Assembly: GCA_025359915.1 (NCBI GenBank)
Contig: JANYDE010000101.1
Location: 1 to 43,091, forward strand
DNA: 43,091 nt
Direction of reading: 5' to 3'
DNA from: Chamaesiphon sp. 336R_metabinner_41
Lineage (GTDB): Bacteria > Cyanobacteriota > Cyanobacteriia > Cyanobacteriales > Chamaesiphonaceae
Position 1 is the first letter of the stretch; each line of letters opens with the position of its first letter. Below, piece after piece: positions 22,884 to 34,900 of this stretch. Below the pieces are notes generated by a model. It was not told where the DNA came from and ran no database searches. It worked only from the letters and a program-made list of their open reading frames with translations. Both the position numbers and the translations under genes were made by a program.

Positions 22884-23163
22884 GTAGCGGTTTTGATCTC
22901 CAAAAAAATATAAAGCACCGTTGCTGCTACTGTCAATTGGACACCGCTCTATTCCCCCACAGGGAGGCTCCGCCAACGGCAGATCGGTGGCAATTGTTAA
23001 TTTGTAGCCTAATTAGGTACCGTTTTGTTAACAATCATTAACATTTATATTACCCTAGTCTGCGACTGGCGGCTAGTAAGTCGATCCCCAAGTTCAGGAA
23101 AGCTGATAAGATATTCACTTGGGAAAATGCGGACTTGTGCCGCTTAGGGATGCATCTAGAGCT
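22884..23163. other. Divergent intergenic region between desA and smc
   Basis: These 280 bp should hold both promoters. A repeat-derived block (GGAGGCTCCGCC near 22970) lies in it. I see no clear -35/-10 pair, operator or small ORF. Confidence 0.5.
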
Positions 23164-26100
23164 ATGGTACACATCAAACAAGTAGAACTGTCGCATTTCA
23201 AGTCTTTCGGTGGTACTACCAAAGTCCCGATTTTGCCTGGATTTACTGTAGTATCGGGGCCGAATGGTTCGGGGAAGTCGAATATTCTCGACGCGCTGTT
23301 ATTTTGTCTCGGATTGGCTAGTTCTAAGGGGATGCGGGCGGAACGGTTGCCGGATTTGGTAAATCATGACCGCAATACTAAGGGCGCGTCTGAGGCGATT
23401 GTGACGGTGACTTTCGATTTGGAGAATGATGAGCCAGCACCGGAGGTGAAGGTGGTGGATATTAGTAGTCTGTCGCCTGCTCCACCCAGAGAGAGACTGG
23501 CGAATGAGTGGGTAGTGACGCGGCGGCTGCGGGTGAATGCTCAGGGTGGTTATACGTCGAATTATTCGATTAATGGGGAGGCGTGTAATCTCGCGGAGTT
23601 GCACGATCAATTGAATGCGCTGCGGATTTATCCTGAGGGCTATAACGTCGTGTTGCAGGGGGATGTCACTAGCATCATCTCGATGAATAGCAAGGAGCGG
23701 CGGGAGATTATTGATGAGTTGGCTGGTGTGGCGGCTTTCGATCGCAAGATCGATCGAGCTAAGAGTACACTGGATGAGGTGAAGGAAAAGGTCGAAAAAT
23801 GCAATATTGTTGCGGCTGAATTGGTGGCGCAGCGGGACAGGTTGGCGCAGGATAAGATTAAGGCTGAAAAGTACCAAAGATTGCGGACGGAATTTCAACA
23901 GAAGTCTGTGGAAGAGGTGGTTTTGAAGTGGCAGAATCTTCAGCAGAAGCAGTCTAATATTCAGGCGGATTTAGGTAAGGGTAAGGTTGCTCTGATTGAG
24001 TTGGATCGGCAAGTAACAGATCTGCAAGGGGAGATCGGGATGACGACGGTGGAAGTTGAGCGGTTAAATGCTTGCGTGCGGGCGTTGGGTGAGGAGAAGT
24101 TATTAGCGGCTCAGGCGGAGTTGGCAACACAGCAGGCGGAACAACGTCAACTAGTTCAGCAGCAACAAGAACTGATTACAAATCGCGCTAATACGCATAC
24201 TAATCAACAGCAATCGGCGACGCAATTAGCTAATTATGAGGGTGAATTTAAGAGTTTAACTAGTAAGCAACAGCAGCTAGAAACTACCCAATTAGCTAAA
24301 CTAATTGTCGATCGCGATGATACGCAATATCAGTTAGGATTGACTAAGGAAAAAGCTAGCTCGATCGCGTCGGCATCTACGGCTTGGGTGGAGGAACAAA
24401 CTCAGGTTACACGCCAGATTGAAACGACGCTTCAGTTATTAAGTAAACAGCGGACAGCTCAAGCACAACTAACCGAACGTCGCAGTCAGTTAACAGCAAA
24501 GATCGCCGAAGAAACCGATCGCTTGGCAACTGTTAGCCCTGAACTATTAGCTAATCAAAATAAAGTCACTCAGCTTCAAGATAAACTCGCTCAATCCACA
24601 GGCGAATTAGCCGTATTAGAGAACAAACTCACCGCCGTTCAAACTAACGTTGATACTCAACTAGAAACCCAAAAACGACTATTACAAGAACAGCGCGATA
24701 AACAGCGATTAGTCGATAAATTAGAAGCCCAGAATCAAGTCCAACAGGAAGCACAAGGTACCTTCGCAACCAAAATCATCCAGGAAGCCAAAATCCCTGG
24801 CGTACATGGCTTAGTCGCCCAATTAGGCAAAGTAGATCCTGCCTATCAATTAGCTCTAGAAATCTCCGCAGGGGCAAGGCTGGGTAATTTAGTCGTCCAA
24901 GATGATGGCGTAGCTTCCCGCGCGATCGAACTGCTCAAACAAAAACGCGGTGGACGGGCGACATTTTTACCATTAAATAAAATTAATGCCCAACCATTAC
25001 GCGAGAATGCCGCATTAAGATCGACCCAAGGTTTTATTGATTATGCCGTTAATTTAGTAGACTTCGATCGCGAGTACGAAAACATCTTTAATTACGTCTT
25101 TGGTGGGACAATAGTATTCGACAGACTCGATCGAGCGCGGAGTCTACTCGGCAAACACCGCATCGTCACCCTCGACGGCGAACTGCTCGAAGCCAGTGGC
25201 GCAATGACAGGGGGAAATATCTCGAATAAATCCACCCTCCACTTTGGTACCGCCGATGCGAGTGAATCCGCCGAAGTCCGCACCCTGCAACAGCGACTTG
25301 CCCAAATCGAACAGATCCTCCAAGTCAGCATCGAAGTCGTCAACAAAAGCAACACCGAACTGCGTCAACTGAGTACCGCCGTCGCTGATACCCGCCAAAA
25401 TCAACGAGAAATCAAACTCAACTTCGATCGCAATCACCAAGAAATCGGTCAATTAACCAATCAACAAACTCAACTCCAGAGCCAGATTGCCAAAAATCAA
25501 CAAGATCTCGATCGCACCATCACCGATCTCACCGCCCTAGAACAAACTCTACCCGCCCAAGAAGCCACCCTCGCCGCATCCCACGCCGAACTCGCCGAAC
25601 TCGAAAAATCCGGCGTACATAGCGATTGGCAAGCTATCCAAACCGAGATTAAATCGATCGAACAGCAGTTCCAACAGCGTCAACAAGCCCTCGCCAGCGT
25701 CGAACAGCAACTCCAAGAGATCGATCGTCAGCGGAGCATTTTAACCGAAAAAATCTCCGAACATCAACGCCGCACCAGTGAATATATCGAACAGATTGGC
25801 GGACTCGATCGAAAACTCACCGACATTCAAGCTAAAATAACTATAATTAACGACGGAATTCTAGCCACAAAAGCCGCCCTAGTCATCCTCGACAAAGAAC
25901 TCGGTACCGACAAACAAGAGCGCGACAAAGCCGAAGCCAAACTCCGCCAACTCCAGCTCAACCTCCAAGAACTCCAGTGGGAGCAACAAAAACTCACCCA
26001 ACTCCAACAGCAACGCCAAACCGAAATCGACAACCTGATCGTCCAAATTGCCACCCAACGCACCGAACTCCCCGCCGAACTCCCCGAACTCCCACCCGAA

Positions 26101-26769
26101 TCCCAAACCGACGAATATCTCGCCTCCCTCCAATCCCAAATCCGCCTACTCCAAAAACGGATGGAAGGAATGGAACCCGTCAACATGCTCGCCCTCGAAG
26201 CCTACGAAGAAACCAACAACCGTCTCCAAGAACTCAGCGACAAACTCGCCACCCTCGAAGCCGAAAGTATGGAACTCTTGCTCCGCATCGAAAACTTCAC
26301 CACCCTGCGCTTCCAAGCCTTCAGCGAAGCCTTTGATGCCGTCAACCTCAACTTCCAAGATATCTTCGCCGAACTCTCTGACGGCGACGGCTTCCTCCAA
26401 TTAGAAGATCCAAATAATCCCTTTGCTGGTGGTTTAAATCTCGTTGCCCACCCTAAAGGAAAACCCGTCCAACGCCTCTCCTCGATGTCTGGGGGCGAGA
26501 AATCCCTGACAGCTCTAAGTTTTATCTTCGCCCTCCAACGCTACCGCCCATCGCCCTTCTATGCCTTCGATGAGGTCGATATGTTCCTCGATGGGGCGAA
26601 TGTGGAACGCCTGTCGAAGATGATTCGCAAGCAAGCTAATCAAGCGCAGTTTTTGGTAGTGAGTCTGCGTCGCCCGATGATTGAAGCGGCTGACAGGACA
26701 ATTGGTGTGACGCAAGCACGGGGAGCTTATACTCAGGTATTGGGTATCAATCTCAAGACTTCGGCGTAG
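23164..26769 (+). CDS. smc: Chromosome segregation protein SMC
   Basis: This long-coiled-coil ATPase compacts and segregates the chromosome together with ScpA and ScpB (not in the window). The 1201-aa protein has an N-terminal head with the Walker A motif GPNGSGKSN (residues 32-40), the first coiled coil (about 170-530), a hinge (about 540-700, with VHGLVAQLGKVDPAYQLALEI and RATFLPLNKI) and the second coiled coil (about 715-1060). The C-terminal head carries the ABC signature [10 protein letters not shown] (about 1105-1114) and Walker [14 protein letters not shown]. The ATG at 23164 (MVHIKQVELSHFKSFGG) is the family start. Base composition swings from G-rich in the first kilobase to strongly C-rich in the second half. 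Its last 70-410 bp are duplicated at 27728-27797 and 29966-30376. Confidence 0.97.
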   Translation: MVHIKQVELSHFKSFGGTTKVPILPGFTVVSGPNGSGKSNILDALLFCLGLASSKGMRAERLPDLVNHDRNTKGASEAIVTVTFDLENDEPAPEVKVVDISSLSPAPPRERLANEWVVTRRLRVNAQGGYTSNYSINGEACNLAELHDQLNALRIYPEGYNVVLQGDVTSIISMNSKERREIIDELAGVAAFDRKIDRAKSTLDEVKEKVEKCNIVAAELVAQRDRLAQDKIKAEKYQRLRTEFQQKSVEEVVLKWQNLQQKQSNIQADLGKGKVALIELDRQVTDLQGEIGMTTVEVERLNACVRALGEEKLLAAQAELATQQAEQRQLVQQQQELITNRANTHTNQQQSATQLANYEGEFKSLTSKQQQLETTQLAKLIVDRDDTQYQLGLTKEKASSIASASTAWVEEQTQVTRQIETTLQLLSKQRTAQAQLTERRSQLTAKIAEETDRLATVSPELLANQNKVTQLQDKLAQSTGELAVLENKLTAVQTNVDTQLETQKRLLQEQRDKQRLVDKLEAQNQVQQEAQGTFATKIIQEAKIPGVHGLVAQLGKVDPAYQLALEISAGARLGNLVVQDDGVASRAIELLKQKRGGRATFLPLNKINAQPLRENAALRSTQGFIDYAVNLVDFDREYENIFNYVFGGTIVFDRLDRARSLLGKHRIVTLDGELLEASGAMTGGNISNKSTLHFGTADASESAEVRTLQQRLAQIEQILQVSIEVVNKSNTELRQLSTAVADTRQNQREIKLNFDRNHQEIGQLTNQQTQLQSQIAKNQQDLDRTITDLTALEQTLPAQEATLAASHAELAELEKSGVHSDWQAIQTEIKSIEQQFQQRQQALASVEQQLQEIDRQRSILTEKISEHQRRTSEYIEQIGGLDRKLTDIQAKITIINDGILATKAALVILDKELGTDKQERDKAEAKLRQLQLNLQELQWEQQKLTQLQQQRQTEIDNLIVQIATQRTELPAELPELPPESQTDEYLASLQSQIRLLQKRMEGMEPVNMLALEAYEETNNRLQELSDKLATLEAESMELLLRIENFTTLRFQAFSEAFDAVNLNFQDIFAELSDGDGFLQLEDPNNPFAGGLNLVAHPKGKPVQRLSSMSGGEKSLTALSFIFALQRYRPSPFYAFDEVDMFLDGANVERLSKMIRKQANQAQFLVVSLRRPMIEAADRTIGVTQARGAYTQVLGINLKTSA

Positions 26770-26789
26770 GCATCTTCCAATCCTAAAAT

Positions 26790-27335
26790 ATGCTAAAAAA
26801 TGTCAAAATTATTAGAAGCAGTGATGAACAATTAATTGATGCAGACATATCGAATTTATCAACTAAAAATCTTGATGACTTTGAGTTGGTATGGAAACCA
26901 CAACTACAAAATTCTGTTGCTGAGGATCGAGTATGGGATTGGGTGAAAAAAGAGCGAATCTATGTTGCTAGCCCCAATTACGAAAGTTATGCAGTCGAAT
27001 GTGAAGGGATGACTCAAGGATTGATGCTCATCGATACTCGCTTTCATCGTTCTCAAATCGAATCTAGCCGACGGCTAGTATATGTATCTTTCCTCGCGAC
27101 AGCTCCCTGGAACCGCTCCTTAATTCAAACACCACCTACCTATCGAGCCGTGGGAAGTGTTTTACTCCAATTTGCCAGGGAGCGTAGTTTTGAATTAGGA
27201 TATGGAGGCTTGGTCGGTTTACACGCATTGAGTGAGTCTGTCAGTTTCTATGCCAAAATGGGTATGATTGGTGGAGATGGAGATCCAGACAGAGATGGAT
27301 TGCCTTATTTCGAGTGGTATCGTCGCGAGGAGTGA
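26790..27335 (+). CDS. GNAT-like acetyltransferase domain protein in the smc 3' accessory module
   Basis: This 181-aa protein has a C-terminal half resembling a GNAT fold: GVG-like AVGSVLLQFARERSFELGYGG (about residues 113-134) would be the acetyl-CoA-binding loop and helix, followed by LHALSESVSFYAKMGM (142-157), the usual end of the fold. The N-terminal 80 residues (DADISNLSTKNLDDFELVW and WVKKERIYVASPNYESYAVE) are not recognised. It starts 20 bp after smc and ends 3 bp before the next gene, so the two form a pair. GNAT toxins exist in toxin-antitoxin systems, but those partners are usually ribbon-helix-helix proteins and this partner is not, so the function is open. Confidence 0.7.
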   Translation: MLKNVKIIRSSDEQLIDADISNLSTKNLDDFELVWKPQLQNSVAEDRVWDWVKKERIYVASPNYESYAVECEGMTQGLMLIDTRFHRSQIESSRRLVYVSFLATAPWNRSLIQTPPTYRAVGSVLLQFARERSFELGYGGLVGLHALSESVSFYAKMGMIGGDGDPDRDGLPYFEWYRREE

Positions 27336-27338
27336 ATC

Positions 27339-27716
27339 ATGGATAATATAAAGACCAATCTTTCTACCGCGAATCACTGGAACAGTAATCCAAATTGGGC
27401 AACAGATGAAGAGTGGGTGAGGGCTGCGGCTAATCTGGAATCTGAGACAGGAGTAGATATTCTGATTGGGGCAGATTTAGGAAATAATTTAGATTATCCC
27501 GATCAGATTATCCCCAATCAAATCGATGTCGATCGATTGACAGTGGTTATTCAAGAAGGTTTAAGAGATTTGTTATCTCAAGAGGAATTAACAACACTAG
27601 TGGCTGAAACTAATGCTTATATTAGAGAACGAGTCTATCATTTGAAGTTCGTTGGCGTTGGCGAAGCCTCTCGAAGAGAAGCCTTTCAGAACGAAAATCG
27701 TTCTAAAGTCTAATTT
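27339..27716 (+). CDS. Unknown protein paired with the GNAT-like gene, C-terminus made by a repeat insertion
   Basis: This protein of about 124 aa has no recognised family. The body (residues 1-107) is acidic, with WATDEEWVRAAANLESETG and a helical end (SQEELTTLVAETNAYIRERVYHL). The final 17 or so residues are translated from a dispersed cyanobacterial repeat (GTTGGCG, then AGCCTCTCG, then AGAGAAGCC, at about 27659-27683) plus a small hairpin (AGAACGA/TCGTTCT, 27688-27704). The native C-terminus was therefore probably replaced. It begins 3 bp after the GNAT-like gene and is certainly co-transcribed with it. It could be an antitoxin or an accessory subunit (inference). Confidence 0.65.
27659..27704. 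repeat. Interspersed repeat plus hairpin read through by the preceding gene
   Basis: GTTGGCG-AGCCTCTCG-AGAGAAGCC type sequence is a common cyanobacterial interspersed element. Related fragments occur near 28746-28770, 34870-34895 and 36206-36245. It is followed by the perfect inverted repeat AGAACGA/TCGTTCT (27688-27694 and 27698-27704). It lies between the end of the GNAT module and the first smc-tail copy. Confidence 0.65.
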
Positions 27717-27727
27717 CATCTCTGAAC

Positions 27728-27797
27728 GATCGGCGTGACGCAAGCACGGGGAGCTTATACTCAGGTATTGGGTATCAATTTCAAGACTTCGGCGTAG
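27728..27797 (+). pseudogene. First downstream copy of the smc 3' end (about 70 bp)
   Basis: Read from 27729 the sequence encodes [22 protein letters not shown] followed by TAG, the last 22 residues of SMC with one change (L to F). Over 38 nt (27733-27770) it is identical to both the smc gene and the third copy. It has no head domain and cannot be functional. It marks the right end of the GNAT module and the left end of the next module. Synonymous positions match smc at one site and the third copy at another, so it is not a simple copy of either. Confidence 0.9.
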
Positions 27798-27860
27798 AGT
27801 GGGGATGACAAATTTTAATAGCTAACTTATAATTAGAAGTATAAATAGGCTATTTAAGGA

Positions 27861-27990
27861 TGCAGCAGACGTACTTATGGCACGACATCCCGTTACCACT
27901 TGTGGTCGAGGCTAGTCCGGTAAAGACGTTCTGAATACCAAAACTAATGTTTTGGCGAAGGCTCCTTCTAAGGAGCTTTTGTTATTTAAG
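27861..27990 (+). ncRNA. Candidate structured small RNA with intrinsic terminator
   Basis: This stretch between the first smc-tail copy and the next gene has no ORF but consecutive hairpins: ACCAC/GTGGT at about 27895-27906, CCAAAAC/GTTTTGG at about 27939-27956, and a perfect GCTCCTT/AAGGAGC stem with a 2-nt loop at 27961-27976, followed by TTTTGTT. The last is a typical intrinsic terminator, so a transcript should end here although no gene precedes it. I do not recognise an Rfam family. It could equally be the leftover 3' end of a deleted gene. Confidence 0.4.
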
Positions 27991-28097: not shown

Positions 28098-28547
28098 TTA
28101 TAATTCCCATACATGATTGGGATTATTGAGAGCAGCTTTGACTTTAGATAGATCGGATAAATCTTGAAATGGACTAGAATTAGCCAACTGAACGATCGCA
28201 TCTAGAGTCAAACTTAGCTGATAATTATCCTCCGTAGATATTGATCGATCGACTGTTTGAAAGAGTGATTTAAAATTCTCAGCTCTTTCATCAAAAGAGC
28301 GATCGAGATACCCTATAACTAATTCTCGTTTTAAATTAATATCAGCTAAAGTTGTCTGTCGCCAAGCTTCGATTTCATCACGTTTAGTTTTTTCTGTCTC
28401 TGCAACCTCTAAATACTCCTGTCCTTGCCTAACAATATCACTTTCCTTTGCTTGTTCTCGATCCGCCAGCCCACCAGCTCCAACTAGAATTCCAGCACCG
28501 CTAAACAAAGCGACCGCACCAAAAATGAGCGGAATAATAAAAACCAT
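28098..28547 (-). CDS. Unknown protein with one N-terminal membrane helix
   Basis: This 149-aa protein has a glycine/alanine-rich hydrophobic N-terminus (IIPLIFGAVALFSGAGILVGAGGLA, residues about 4-28). A charged, helical cytoplasmic domain follows (EYLEVAETEKTKRDEIEAWRQTTLADINLKRELVIGYLD), ending with LTLDAIVQLANSSPFQDLSDLSKVKAAL. No family is recognised. The layout resembles small membrane-anchored proteins of accessory islands. It lies on the minus strand within the second smc-tail module, and its start at 28547 is preceded by AGAGG at about 28553-28557 on its strand, which supports it. Confidence 0.6.
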   Translation of the reverse strand: MVFIIPLIFGAVALFSGAGILVGAGGLADREQAKESDIVRQGQEYLEVAETEKTKRDEIEAWRQTTLADINLKRELVIGYLDRSFDERAENFKSLFQTVDRSISTEDNYQLSLTLDAIVQLANSSPFQDLSDLSKVKAALNNPNHVWEL

Positions 28548-28685
28548 AGGAAACCTCTTTAAAACGATCGGTTTTAATCAGTCCCACAAGCATAACAATT
28601 GAAATAGTGAATCGACCTCAGTATATTTACGATGTCAGTAGCATCAGCTCTCGATCGATCTGCCAGGAACTTCAGACCATGAAGT

Positions 28686-28775
28686 GATGAAAATGATTGC
28701 TCTGTATATATTTTAAGTAGCAATAGAGCCTTTGCTAATTCGACTCGTTGGCGTAGCCTCTCAGAATGAGAATCG
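28686..28775. repeat. Long dispersed repeat, copy 1
   Basis: About 90 bp that recur with roughly 80-85% identity at 34809-34900. Both copies share ATGATTGCTCTG, TTTTAAGTAG, AATAGAGCCTTTGCTA and TTCGACTCGTTGG, then a more variable AGCCTCTC part with GAGAAT. A minus-strand reading frame runs through it in both copies but gives only a short peptide (LLLLK core) joined to non-repeat sequence, so I treat it as a repeat, not a gene. Confidence 0.75.
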
Positions 28776-28778
28776 ATA

Positions 28779-29126
28779 TCATAATGGCAAATACCGAACT
28801 GTATTCTGTAACTCCTCCGCAGTAGCAAGTTGGGAAATTAATTCTAAATCTGTAATGCAACCACCAATCGATATATTTAACTGATGGGCATACAGCACCC
28901 CTGGGAAAAAGATTCCCGATTCTTGGCGATGTTGCGCTTCTACCAGAAAGTCATCATCTTGGGTAAAGAGTATCCTATTAAGTTCAGTAGATCGATCTAA
29001 AATCTTGCGATCTGGAAAACCAGTTCTTCCATCTTCTTGTACTGTTAAAACATCAATATTTCGTAAGCGCAAACCACTAGTAATTGATCGAGGAACGTGT
29101 TCGTCCATGTAAAAAGCAAGACTCAT
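28779..29126 (-). CDS. DUF5615 PIN-like protein, probable toxin
   Basis: This 115-aa protein of the DUF5615 family, a PIN-fold relative, is a presumed RNase. It starts LAFYMDEHVPRSITSGLRLRNIDVLTVQEDG, where D7/E8 stand for the first acidic site. LFTQDDDFL (about residues 53-61) holds the conserved acidic cluster, and the C-terminal half contains GVLYAHQLNISIGGCI. I choose the ATG at 29126, 5 bp after the stop of the upstream DUF433 gene, over the GTG at 29144, which would overlap that gene. DUF433-DUF5615 pairs behave like VapBC-type toxin-antitoxin systems by guilt of association; activity here is inferred. Confidence 0.85.
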   Translation of the reverse strand: MSLAFYMDEHVPRSITSGLRLRNIDVLTVQEDGRTGFPDRKILDRSTELNRILFTQDDDFLVEAQHRQESGIFFPGVLYAHQLNISIGGCITDLELISQLATAEELQNTVRYLPL

Positions 29127-29131
29127 TACAA

Positions 29132-29440
29132 TTATTCCTGACACTCCAATCGGCTTGCTAAGTTCAATGGTTCGGCTTGCTGACGAAGACTTTCAGCAAA
29201 ATCAAAACGTCTTTGGATATCCAGATCCATTTCGCCCCGATAATCCCAATAGTAGGCAAGAGCAGAATAAATTTGACTCATACTTAGGTCTGGATACTGA
29301 AAATGGATTTCTTCAGGACTCCAACCATAGGCTTTTTGAGCGATGATGATTTCCACTACTTTCATCGTAGTTCCAGCCACGATCGGTACCTGAAGATCAT
29401 CGAGATGGATATGTTTATAAGCAGTAGCAATAGATGTCAT
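29132..29440 (-). CDS. DUF433 protein, probable antitoxin to DUF5615
   Basis: This is a 102-aa DUF433 protein with a predicted helix-turn-helix: TYPIVAGTTMKV-like VPIVAGTTMKVVEIIIAQKAYGWSPEEIHFQYPDLSMSQIYSALAYYWDYRGEMD is the family core (about residues 18-72). The PEEIHFQYPDLSMSQIYSALAYY part is the DNA-binding helix pair. The C-terminal tail (RRFDFAESLRQQAEPLN) probably binds the toxin. It lies directly upstream of the DUF5615 gene on the minus strand, and its own promoter would lie in 29441-29520. Confidence 0.85.
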   Translation of the reverse strand: MTSIATAYKHIHLDDLQVPIVAGTTMKVVEIIIAQKAYGWSPEEIHFQYPDLSMSQIYSALAYYWDYRGEMDLDIQRRFDFAESLRQQAEPLNLASRLECQE

Positions 29441-29678: not shown

Positions 29679-29924
29679 ATGGCATTAGATTTATTCGTTG
29701 AACTTCCGCCTTCAGTGCGCGAAGCATGGCTCAAAGCCAGCACCACAAGCTCCCCGCAGCAAATGAAAGCATTGATGGATAACATTGCTCGAACGATCGT
29801 TGATGCTCAGTATCAAGCCGCGCATACTCAAGTTATGGAACAAATGCAGATCGAACACCTAGAACCATTGAACACAGAAGACGATCTTCTGGCTGCTGCG
29901 GTTAATATCACCAAGCAGAAATAG
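29679..29924 (+). CDS. Small unknown protein before the third smc-tail copy
   Basis: This is an 81-aa helical, acidic protein (LPPSVREAWLKASTTSSPQQMKALMDNIARTIVDAQY, ending in HLEPLNTEDDLLAAAVNITKQK). No family is recognised. It starts 5 bp after the doubtful ORF at 29554, so the two could be pieces of one small operon. It ends 42 bp before the smc-tail copy and may itself be a remnant of a module. Confidence 0.45.
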   Translation: MALDLFVELPPSVREAWLKASTTSSPQQMKALMDNIARTIVDAQYQAAHTQVMEQMQIEHLEPLNTEDDLLAAAVNITKQK

Positions 29925-29965
29925 AATGTTGCGTTTGTGTTTGGATCTGAATATTTGGGTTGCTA

Positions 29966-30376
29966 GATATCTTCGCCGAACTCTCTGACGGCGACGGTTT
30001 CCTCCAATTAGAAGATCCCGCCAACCCCTTCGCTGGCGGTTTAAATCTCGTCGCCCAGCCCAAAGGTAAACCAGTACAGCGGCTCTCCTCGATGTCTGGG
30101 GGCGAGAAATCTCTCACCGCACTCAGTTTTATCTTCGCCCTCCAACGCTACCGCCCATCGCCGTTCTATGCCTTCGATGAGGTAGATATGTTCCTGGATG
30201 GGGCAAATGTGGAACGCCTGTCGAAGATGATTCGCAAGCAAGCCAATCAAGCCCAGTTTTTGGTAGTGAGTCTGCGTCGCCCGATGATTGAAGCTGCCGA
30301 CAGGATGATCGGGGTGACGCAAGCACGGGGAGCTTATACTCAGGTATTGGGCATCAATCTCAAGACTTCGGCGTAG
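29966..30376 (+). pseudogene. Second downstream copy of the smc 3' end (C-terminal ATPase head part)
   Basis: The copy encodes 136 residues plus stop, from [12 protein letters not shown] to KTSA, including the ABC signature [10 protein letters not shown] and Walker [14 protein letters not shown]. It lacks the coiled coil and the Walker A half. Compared codon by codon with smc 26359-26769, about 31 codons differ, about 28 of them synonymous. The three amino-acid changes are N to A, H to Q and T to M. Similarity starts sharply at AGATATC (29966). No ATG is available; a TTG at 29960 would be the only possible start. It is a pseudogene fragment or a displaced gene end that remained intact for a long time. 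Confidence 0.9.
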
Positions 30377-30423
30377 AAGTAGTTTCACGCCTATTCTAAA
30401 TATAGTAAGGCTAAAAATCGCAC

Positions 30424-30453
30424 TTGGCATAAAATCTCAAAACGAGATATACT
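30424..30453 (+). promoter_or_regulatory. Probable promoter and operator of higBA pair 2
   Basis: TTGGCA (30424-30429) and TATACT (30448-30453) are separated by 18 bp and lie 27 bp upstream of the toxin ATG. The spacer contains the inverted repeat ATCTC-AAAAC-GAGAT (30434-30448), well placed for binding of the HigA repressor and autoregulation. Confidence 0.55.
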
Positions 30454-30479
30454 ATTTACAGTAGGGTATTCTCAAGCAA

Positions 30480-30764
30480 ATGCACATTATTAGCCGGAAA
30501 AGATTGCTTGAGTTCGCGACGGTTCATGCAGACTCAGAAACTTCACTAGATACTTGGTATAGAATCACCAAAGCTGCCGAGTGGCAAAATTTAGTAGAAC
30601 TCAGGGAAGCATATCCTTCTGCCGATCTAGTTGGTATTTATACAGTTTTCAATATTAAAGGAAATTACTATCGATTGATAGGTGAAATAAATTATCGTAG
30701 CGGCACTATTTTTGTCCGAGATATCTTAACCCATGTAGATTACAACAAGGATCGATGGAAATGA
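30480..30764 (+). CDS. higB: HigB-type mRNA interferase toxin, pair 2
   Basis: This 94-aa RelE-fold toxin is predicted to cleave ribosome-bound mRNA. LDTWYRITKAAEWQNLVELREAYPSAD leads into the active-core VFNIKGNYYRLIGEINY (about residues 58-74) and the closing DILTHVDYNKDRW. It overlaps its antitoxin gene by 10 bp and has its own promoter just after the smc-tail copy, so it is the first gene of a third cargo module. Its relation to the HigB at 9394 is clear in the core, but the flanks have diverged. Confidence 0.9.
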   Translation: MHIISRKRLLEFATVHADSETSLDTWYRITKAAEWQNLVELREAYPSADLVGIYTVFNIKGNYYRLIGEINYRSGTIFVRDILTHVDYNKDRWK

Positions 30765-31168
30765 AAACTCCTATATTAGATCGAGAATATGCCCAATTAC
30801 TGGTCGCCGTTCAACCCAAGGTTATTGAAACAGAAGAAGAGAATGAATTTTACTTAACAGAAGTTACTAAACTGATACAGTTAGGTGAAACAATATCTCC
30901 AGCACAAGAGCGGTTGCTCAGACTATTGGTGAATTTGATTGAGAGCTTTGAAGATCTGCATTATCAACTTAAATCTGCTACGCCCTTAGAAATTTTAACC
31001 GAATTGGTACGAGATCGAGGACTAAAACAGAAAGACATGTTAGTAGTATTTGGTTCTCAAGGAATAGCTTCAGAGGTACTCAATGGCAAACGGGGAATTA
31101 GCAAAGCTCAGGCCAAAGCACTAGGTGAGTTTTTTAAAGTTTCTCCATCAGTATTTTTTGAAAACTAA
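30755..31168 (+). CDS. higA: HigA-type antitoxin (HTH domain), pair 2
   Basis: This 137-aa antitoxin has an N-terminal helical part with VQPKVIETEEENEFYLTEV. The C-terminal Cro/C1-type HTH contains RGLKQKDMLVVFGSQGIASEVLNGKRGISKAQAKALGEFFKVSP. It is translationally coupled to higB (ATG at 30755 or 30761, inside the toxin gene). It should neutralise HigB and repress the promoter at 30424. It is similar to the HigA at 9006 at PKVIETE, in the PxEIL segment and in the HTH. Confidence 0.9.
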   Translation: MEMKTPILDREYAQLLVAVQPKVIETEEENEFYLTEVTKLIQLGETISPAQERLLRLLVNLIESFEDLHYQLKSATPLEILTELVRDRGLKQKDMLVVFGSQGIASEVLNGKRGISKAQAKALGEFFKVSPSVFFEN

Positions 31169-31171
31169 AAT

Positions 31172-31279
31172 CTAAGATCCTGCAATTAGATCCACCTTGT
31201 CTAATTGTAGTAAAATTTTCTCCGCATTCAATACTAAATCCTCATCGGACAAAGGTAAAAATTCTAAATACGCTGTTCG
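31172..31279 (-). pseudogene. Remnant of an unidentified minus-strand gene
   Basis: On the minus strand an open frame without start codon encodes about 35 residues containing AYLEFLPLSDEDLVLNAEK and ILLQLDKVDLIAG before a TAG at 31172-31174. The composition is protein-like and differs from intergenic DNA around it. It looks like the C-terminal end of a decayed small gene, possibly another antitoxin. The family is not certain. Confidence 0.35.
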
Positions 31280-31302
31280 TTAACTCAATCCGCTAAACCC
31301 CT

Positions 31303-32223
31303 ATGACTCGATTCCCACATGACCAGTTTGCGAAGGATTTTCTAGAGTCATTATTATCGCCGCTAGGACAAGTTCAAACCTCTCTGAAAATTAGTGGTGA
31401 AGTTCGGGAAGTCGATGTTTATTTTATCCCCGATCCCAAACTTCCACCCATCCAAGAATTAGGAATACTAGCTGAATGTGCGAAAAGCACTGTCATCTTT
31501 GAACCGTATCGCAATTCAGTCAAAGTGCCGCAAATTCGCGCTTGCATGTCAAAGCTATACGATCTGCACAGCTATCTGCTCAGAGAGGCTAAAAGACAAT
31601 CGCAGCCAGAACTAGGCGATGATGTTTTACCGGATCTCTGGATTTTGACACCCACACTGTCCGCCCAAATTTTAGAGGGACTTGGTGCTAAATTAGAGCT
31701 AGACAAGTGGGGCGAAGGTGTATATCTGCTCAGTCCAACTCTCAAGACAGGGATTATTGTCATTCATCAACTACCCAAGACACCGACAACTCTATGGGTT
31801 AGACTATTGGGTAAGGGCAAAGTACAGGCGCAAGCCATCCAAGAAGTGGCTGCACTACCAGAGGAGCATCCCTATCGAAATAATGCTTTGGATTTGCTGG
31901 GTAATCTGAAAGTTATCCTCGAAGCAAGAGAAACAATCGAACCAGAAGAGCAGGAGTTAATTATGCAGTTATCACCTTTATATTTAGAAAAGCTTCAAGC
32001 AGCCCAGCAAGTTGGAGAACAAATTGGCGAACAGAGAGGCGAAATTAATGGTCGGCAAGATTTTGTGCTGCGTTTGTTAAAGAAACGAGTAGGTGATGTC
32101 TCCACAGAGATATTAGCAAGGGTGATGGAGTTGTCTTTAGAGCAGTTAGAAGATTTATATGATGCGGCTTTAGATTTTACCCAAATGAGCGATTTGACCT
32201 ACTGGTTAGAGCGAAATGGGTAA
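31303..32223 (+). CDS. DUF4351 protein with a PD-(D/E)XK-like N-terminal domain (Rpn/transposase-associated type)
   Basis: This 306-aa protein is of a type abundant in cyanobacteria. The N-terminal region (FAKDFLESLLSPLGQVQTSLKISGEVREVDVYFIP, then GILAECAKSTVIFEPYRN) fits the nuclease-like fold of these families, with an aspartate at EVDVYF as candidate active-site residue. The C-terminal domain RQDFVLRLLKKRVGDVSTEILARVMELSLEQLEDLYDAALDF is a typical DUF4351 module (about residues 250-300). A glutamine/glutamate-rich linker with repeated GEQIGEQRGEI precedes it. The role may be DNA cleavage or promotion of recombination, by family analogy only. It lies between two toxin-antitoxin pairs. Confidence 0.75.
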   Translation: MTRFPHDQFAKDFLESLLSPLGQVQTSLKISGEVREVDVYFIPDPKLPPIQELGILAECAKSTVIFEPYRNSVKVPQIRACMSKLYDLHSYLLREAKRQSQPELGDDVLPDLWILTPTLSAQILEGLGAKLELDKWGEGVYLLSPTLKTGIIVIHQLPKTPTTLWVRLLGKGKVQAQAIQEVAALPEEHPYRNNALDLLGNLKVILEARETIEPEEQELIMQLSPLYLEKLQAAQQVGEQIGEQRGEINGRQDFVLRLLKKRVGDVSTEILARVMELSLEQLEDLYDAALDFTQMSDLTYWLERNG

Positions 32224-32294
32224 AAATTAGGATTGAGAGATTGATTTATAACTTAGAAAGATTGAAGCAAAACTCAAATTCAAGGCAAAATATT

Positions 32295-32516
32295 ATGTTA
32301 GAGCCACTTACTCAAGCAAAATACCAGATCGATCTAGACAGAACCCCATCCGAACAACTACAGAAAAATCTGGCGAGCCAAGCTGTATTGCGCCAATGGC
32401 TGGATGAGGAAGTAACTCCAGAAGACTTGAATGAGAGAAAGCAATTCTGGGAAGAATTCAAGGAGATAATAGACAGCAATAGAGCATCCGGCTGCAAGCT
32501 TTATTCCCCAGAATAA
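32295..32516 (+). CDS. Probable antitoxin of a PIN-domain toxin
   Basis: This 73-aa acidic, helical protein (SQAVLRQWLDEEVTPEDLNERKQFWEEFKEIID) ends 4 bp before the PIN toxin gene. Size, charge and position fit a VapB-like antitoxin, although I cannot see a DNA-binding domain. I use the ATG at 32295 (MLEPLTQAKYQIDLDRTPSEQ) rather than the in-frame codon at 32241, because the region before it is AT-rich and unlike protein. Confidence 0.65.
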   Translation: MLEPLTQAKYQIDLDRTPSEQLQKNLASQAVLRQWLDEEVTPEDLNERKQFWEEFKEIIDSNRASGCKLYSPE

Positions 32517-34731: not shown

Positions 34732-34808
34732 GAGAAGCTGTGCGGTGAAGAGACTACTTCTCTTAATATGCCCAGGATTGTAGTGAATGTCACAAGGTTG
34801 AAGGGTTG

Positions 34809-34900
34809 TAATGAGAATGATTGCTCTGCATGGGTTTTAAGTAGTAATAGAGCCTTTGCTACTTCGACTCGTTGGCAGAGCCTCTCCTTCGGGAGAATCA
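34809..34900. repeat. Long dispersed repeat, copy 2
   Basis: This is the partner of 28686-28775. It fills much of the 217-bp divergent region between the kinase and methyltransferase genes, so it may contribute promoter sequence. After it come CGGAGGCTCCGC-type repeat fragments up to the methyltransferase start. Confidence 0.75.

Follow-up and report, generated by a model that had tools for sequence, protein, structure and literature searches.

The locus described here raises the question of how a gene can come to be followed by a second, diverged copy of its own 3' end. The window, that is the whole stretch of 43,091 nucleotides that was analysed (Chamaesiphon sp. 336R_metabinner_41, contig JANYDE010000101.1), carries an intact smc gene and a displaced smc 3' end whose terminus lies approximately 3.6 kb beyond it, with inserted DNA and another smc end upstream of it. 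A first-pass annotation had proposed that this displaced end derives either from the smc gene of another strain or from the original end of the resident gene, and that it is not a neutral fragment created by local duplication.

Arrangement and divergence of the smc ends

The order along the contig is smc (live end A), cargo block 1, a short smc end (B), cargo block 2, the displaced end (C) and the flank of C. The cargo stretch between A and C is divided into its two blocks by copy B, which was absent from the first-pass annotation. The features are as follows.

23119-26769, +: intact smc; 1216 codons from the first TTG, likely ATG start at 23167 (ORF list)
26359-26769, +: end A, the live smc 3' end, homologous to C (sequence alignment)
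26770-27723, +: cargo block 1, GC 41.0%
26790-27335, +: cargo 1 ORF, 181 aa, no Pfam family at E 0.001
27339-27713, +: cargo 1 ORF, 124 aa, no Pfam family at E 0.001
27724-27797, +: end B, short displaced copy of the smc 3' terminus, comprising its final 24 codons, stop included
27828-27980, +: sroH-like RNA (RF00372) just 3' of end B, 84.7 bits against a cut-off of 80
28098-28547, -: cargo 2 ORF, 149 aa, no Pfam family
28779-29144, -: cargo 2 DUF5615 (PIN-like) protein, E = 4.4e-13
29132-29440, -: cargo 2 DUF433 protein, E = 1.5e-9
29679-29924, +: cargo 2 ORF, 81 aa, no Pfam family
29965-30376, +: end C, displaced smc 3' end with an intact signature and Walker B; near-invariant residues replaced at two positions
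30377-32497, +: flank 3' of C, the same flank as directly follows smc in genome G002
30480-30764, +: HigB toxin in the flank of C
30755-31168, +: ORF after HigB in the flank of C
31303-32223, +: DUF4351 protein in the flank of C

The smc protein of the window shares 90% identity over 1200 aa with that of G006, and end B is 97% identical to the smc end of G002. Homologues of the 181-aa cargo 1 protein were found in two of 59 other genomes searched, at 48-56% identity. The DUF5615 protein is presumably the toxin of a toxin-antitoxin pair and the DUF433 protein its partner; among known functions, the cargo of the window offers only this toxin-antitoxin-like pair, and the three ORFs tested with PADLOC (from block 1, and the DUF5615 and DUF433 genes) yielded no match. 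Base composition was rejected as a mark of cargo, since the GC content of the cargo blocks (40-41%) is near that of the flank of C (39.7%); smc has 49.1% and the window as a whole 43.7%. The RF00372 match is the sole one in the genome, and none was found in 11 other related loci searched for this RNA as a mark of the junction.

A protein search with C recovered end A at E = 1.1e-83, and matches to the smc end at E ≤ 0.001 were confined to three places in the 4.23-Mb genome; the similarity of A and C is therefore not a matter of chance. B terminates on the same stop codon as A and C, the last 72 nt are common to all three copies, and their mutual similarity ends at the TAG. A functional second SMC protein was rejected as an explanation, as C consists only of the last 137 codons with the stop and has neither a complete head (Walker A) nor the coiled coil. 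The motifs that we take to be the ATPase signature and Walker B were both read as intact in C, as first reported.

Copy C (29966-30376) aligned with A (26359-26769) over 137 codons without gaps. The copies differ at 34 nucleotides in 31 codons, 28 of which are synonymous and three replacements (N19A, H31Q and T114M, from A to C), matching exactly the earlier hand count of about 31, about 28 and three. The analysis of dN and dS called for by the first-pass annotation gave a dN of 0.010-0.015 and a dS of 0.35-0.41 across four methods (0.37-0.39 by NG86 and YN00). This dS is near the between-species level of the genus, the smc ends of G002, G005 and G006 being separated by 0.40-0.52 (NG86, three pairs); C differs from G002 and G005 by a dS of 0.22-0.27. 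Simulated random decay with 15, 17 or 34 changes yielded means of 10.2, 11.4 and 21.7 replaced codons against the three observed, and three or fewer replaced codons occurred in 1, 0 and 0 of 3000 runs respectively. The level of dS and the simulation together indicate that nearly all of the divergence between A and C arose while both ends were working, which agrees with the initial proposal that the copy had been under selection for most of its divergence.

Two of the three replacements (Q31 and M114) lie on the C side at near-invariant positions. Among the 79 of 80 named loci that were readable, position 31 is H in 76 of 76 readable relatives, with three more outside the pattern, and position 114 is T in 79 of 79. 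Since both residues have changed in C, this copy is probably now decaying, no longer constrained and released only recently.

These data bear directly on the possibility that the gene end was duplicated locally in this genome and then decayed, a reading that we regard as highly improbable. Neutral decay predicts that most of the 31 codon changes would be replacements, the dS stands near the between-species level, and the sequence following C is collinear with that of G002 (see below). On these three lines of evidence a neutral local duplicate is rejected, upholding the first-pass annotation on this point. In favour of a duplication, A and C share P18 where G002, G005 and G006 have A18, and a tree in which A and C are sisters passes the 5% test (p-AU 0.074). 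Local duplication is nevertheless strongly disfavoured, and gene conversion would be needed for it to imitate the observed pattern.

Possible resident and incoming ends

In G002, a member of the same genus, smc is continuous past its stop codon with the sequence found 3' of C in the window, at 91% identity through the stop. Positions 29965-31172 and 31280-32497 of the window are collinear with G002 at approximately 89-91%, and the flank of C is common to G002 over 2.1 kb. As the smc gene of G002 is joined directly to this flank, C stands where a real smc end stands in G002, which supports the suggestion that C comes from the smc of another strain or from the original end of this gene. The joint of smc to the flank of C was found only in G002, where the contig is 3.1 kb long; different sequence flanks the smc end in G005 and G006, and the end had no match in five further genomes of the genus. 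The arrangement in G002 could also be the product of a later excision.

Distances between the ends were compared with those of the adjoining gene. C differs from G005 and G002 at 23 and 25 of 411 positions and A at 33 and 31; G002 and G005 differ from each other at 33 of these positions. Upstream of the end, over 558 bases, the smc gene of the window shows 35 differences from G002 and 38 from G005, and G002 and G005 are separated by 32. Scaled by the distance between G002 and G005, A is no more divergent than the upstream part of smc and so does not stand out as foreign, and C is closer than expected. The first-pass annotation had looked to a tree of smc ends from related strains for the copy that matches the species tree. 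The tree is too weak to single out that copy: it paired C with G005 at 51% support, and A and C as sisters had a p-AU of 0.074, above the 5% rejection level.

The polarity may also be the reverse, with A resident and C brought in together with its HigBA flank from a G002-like strain, although this is rather unlikely. The smaller distance of C than of A from G002 and G005 would suit such an origin, as would the observation that HigBA does not adjoin smc in G006. Against it, the flank of C is common to G002 for the full 2.1 kb, with no second insertion needed, and B is situated between cargo blocks, so that cargo at this locus does adjoin smc ends.

Displaced ends in other genomes

Displaced smc ends were sought in 100 genomes, that of the window included. 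An smc match was found in 92, four of which (G000, G043, G065 and G066) carry a displaced end. In a class-wide search of 388 genomes, of which the best matches were listed, 39 of the genomes with extra matches were searched again; displaced ends were present in 6 of 18 such genomes of family f33 (G265, G297, G309, G369, G409 and G433), and the 21 genomes of other families had no displaced end, only distant ATPase matches at 26-34% identity. Of 16 genomes in the genus of G433, 9 carry additional smc fragments; in eight of these the 3' end of the gene is reached, the fragment of G227 being the one that does not.

A decayed smc end lies directly 5' of a PRC-barrel gene in all 10 fetched stretches that contain this gene, although the stretches were chosen around smc genes or fragments and not at random, and the PRC-barrel gene was outside the stretch for 9 of the 16 genomes. 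In G433, G460 and G461 the relic before the PRC-barrel gene is on a contig other than that of smc. Many of the relics beside the PRC-barrel gene may descend from one old event, and the better-preserved displaced copies look later. Where displaced ends are well preserved, their differences from the host gene are mostly synonymous, with synonymous to replaced codon counts of 11/2, 12/1, 46/12 (third copy of G433, in two parts) and 51/7; the same comparison of the whole smc genes of G433 and G369 gave 35/11. The third smc end of G433 is split by approximately 95 bases of unrelated sequence (L125 17567-17661).

The accessory ORFs between smc and the PRC-barrel gene differ among G297, G309, G409, G456, G458, G066 and G265. 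A Dazbog-type pair was found 3' of an smc end in five places (G409, G227, G433, G369 and G265); the pair of G409, the one tested, matches the anti-phage proteins DzbA (E = 6.5e-116) and DzbB (E = 2.2e-77). That of G433 is split by a frame break, and that of G265 is far from smc, beside an smc end of 262 codons. Among the other cargo scanned were a defence gene pair of HEC-01 type in G297, a protein with a NERD domain in G309, and an ATPase. G433 and G369 share a 4.97-kb block, comprising a PIN-like gene, an smc end and the Dazbog pair, at 97.9% identity; over 2.4 kb of their smc genes the identity is 91.1%. The smc end within the block shows no difference between the two genomes in 198 positions and 13 of 198 from either host gene. 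In the genus of G433 the last codons of the ends (SSDH or SSN) are for the most part associated with a particular downstream flank: one such flank is common to the SSN-ending smc ends of G369, G227 and G409 and to the two mid copies (G433 and G369), many SSDH-ending ends have another, and the far copy of G265 mixes both. This far copy (L123 7788-8606 and beyond; C1:5619787 on) lies downstream of ctpA, and the second gene of its Dazbog-type pair is cut short. On contig C320 of G227, 280 bases are identical to the upstream flank of the G265 far copy.

The background frequency of such fragments was estimated from four control genes, whose C-termini were searched for in the same 16 genomes. Displaced fragments were present in 2 of 64 gene-genome pairs against 9 of 16 for smc, a comparison that is imperfect in that the control pieces were 136 aa long against 262 aa for smc, valS has an identity of only approximately 50%, and several smc relics may go back to a common ancestor. 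Before counting, extra ctpA-like matches (51-58% identity, long open frames, paralogues) and one short valS match were dropped. The two fragments are of ctpA in G460 and of rpe in G458, the latter upstream of its gene. On these figures, a general background rate was rejected as the whole explanation. Wider samples of genes were also inspected: a 360-kb sample of G456, with 211 ORFs of 150 aa or longer, gave four matches, two of them ends displaced downstream and the other two copies directly adjoining; no displaced end was present in 299 kb of the genome of the window (190 ORFs), and in the window itself (27 ORFs) smc is the only gene with one. The two displaced ends of G456 belong to genes named by eye as sufR-like and carotenoid-oxygenase-like and lie approximately 2.2-2.3 kb downstream; both repeats extend about 30-50 nt past the stop codon. 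The scar is thus not unique to smc, and smc is a hot place for it in the genus of G433.

In the sufR-like region of G456 (L197 4544-7470), the repeated 3' end flanks an AAA ATPase, which matches Septu-type and PARIS-type models near 1e-30, and an OLD-like TOPRIM gene, the product of which gave weak matches. In G458 (L180 4939-10291), a 93-codon copy of the rpe 3' end stands upstream of the intact rpe, the opposite order to that at smc, and the intervening DNA contains a PD-(D/E)XK nuclease with PIN-like and Uma2-like ORFs, the last two identified by eye.

Integration and comparison with known systems

The arrangement is probably explained by insertion of cargo beside genes through homology-driven recombination, using a diverged copy of the 3' end of the gene. 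C would then be a former smc 3' end, or that of another lineage, separated from the gene by inserted cargo. The insert would have brought its own diverged smc 3' end or become joined beside one; recombination inside the shared smc sequence would retain one complete smc gene, and the second end, left downstream as a relic, would form a direct repeat flanking the cargo. The order A, cargo, B, cargo, C suggests that insertion took place at least twice at this locus. We infer that A, and not C, arrived with the cargo and that joining was effected by host recombination, either by a single crossover with a circle bearing an smc end and cargo, or by homology at one end combined with illegitimate joining at the other.

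Site-specific integration, in which the smc 3' end serves as attachment site, the elements carry a replacement end and the integrase has been lost or lies elsewhere, was also considered. Similarity that stops at the stop codon, as between A, B and C, is typical of attachment sites in genes as well. The stacking of several cargo blocks at one gene end and the excess of smc fragments over control-gene fragments in the same genomes would likewise suit such a site. Searches for tyrosine (PF00589) and serine (PF00239) recombinases, the only two families used, yielded no match on the window contig or in the smc islands of nine genomes, those of G043, G065, G433, G460, G461 and G227 being outside the search. 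The six scanned ORFs of the window insert have no integrase domain, and G066, a single-contig genome with an smc island, has no PF00589 match at the curated cut-off genome-wide. A mobile element equipped with a recombinase of either family was rejected, none being found in the islands tested.

The borders of the displaced ends may also speak against an attachment site. Their 5' limits, as located by tblastn, vary among genomes from smc residue 938 to 1178; nucleotide matches place the start of the mid copies, in both G433 and G369, near residue 1130. This variation is weaker evidence than it appears, because decayed relics may have lost their edges; the border at 938 may represent one event, as it is common to G433, G265 and G227. 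Borders of two types coincide with the end of a dispersed repeat that terminates in GCGATCGC, and at one border in G433 TGCGATCGC is common to smc and the upstream gene at the joint. Further evidence is provided by the like scars at the sufR-like and carotenoid-oxygenase-like genes, whose repeats pass the stop codon, and at ctpA. Site-specific integration is judged unlikely, and insertion driven by homology beside gene ends, for which smc is a favoured place, is concluded to fit these data better.

A broader and more tentative possibility is that cyanobacteria carry integrase-free cassettes, each composed of a host gene 3' end with defence or toxin-antitoxin cargo, that spread between strains and stack by using the gene end as a homology arm. 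The borrowed end would become the live end of an essential gene after insertion, so that selection would keep it functional and its divergence would be almost purely synonymous.

Hotspots of horizontal transfer that are flanked by core genes, lack mobile elements and arise by recombination in the flanking core genes have been described (Oliveira et al. 2017, PMC5635113). The turnover of accessory genes beside a core gene with no integrases resembles these hotspots, and the mark of a hotspot, a varying set of accessory genes at one position with conserved genes on either side, was found between smc and the PRC-barrel gene. The model outlined in that paper places a double crossover in the two flanking genes, and we reason that it would leave no duplicated gene end; unlike the hotspots presented there, the smc locus retains a diverged 3'-end copy of one gene, and the copies can stack. 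Homology-facilitated illegitimate recombination, in which one-sided homology is followed by illegitimate joining, is named for three naturally competent species, pneumococcus, Acinetobacter and Pseudomonas stutzeri (PMC2884548). As set out there, this process fits the variable borders and the duplications near the anchor, but unlike the cases that source describes it would here recur at one chromosomal gene.

Integrase-borne islands are found in protein genes, including SGI1 at the 3' end of trmE (PMC8409611) and islands in the 5' end of dusA (PMC4482086). The smc islands resemble them in being inserted at a fixed end of a protein gene, but as portrayed in those reports SGI1 and the dusA islands are each linked to an integrase and to one specific site, whereas no recombinase was found in the smc islands tested. 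For some defence islands, the mobility of islands with no known mobility genes is described as unclear (PMC10121019). A search of titles and abstract openings, to which most subscription journals were external, returned no published description of such an smc-end case. Cargo flanked by direct repeats is also known from IS26 translocatable units, which could form a circle and re-insert by homology; the repeat here is a host gene end and not an insertion sequence.

A displaced and selectively preserved gene end constitutes a readable scar of single insertion events, showing on which side entry took place and how old the event is in relative terms, and perhaps pointing to the donor lineage. The smc genes of Chamaesiphon and of a Dolichospermum-like genus offer a good place to test for islands built by host recombination alone. 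They also carry a warning for annotation, in that short SMC-like ORFs adjoining smc can be relics.

A dispersed repeat of approximately 65-95 nt, its copies 80-87% alike, was observed at 28655-28762 and 34808-34886 of the window, and also in Chamaesiphon sp. 341R (L033 9280-9372).
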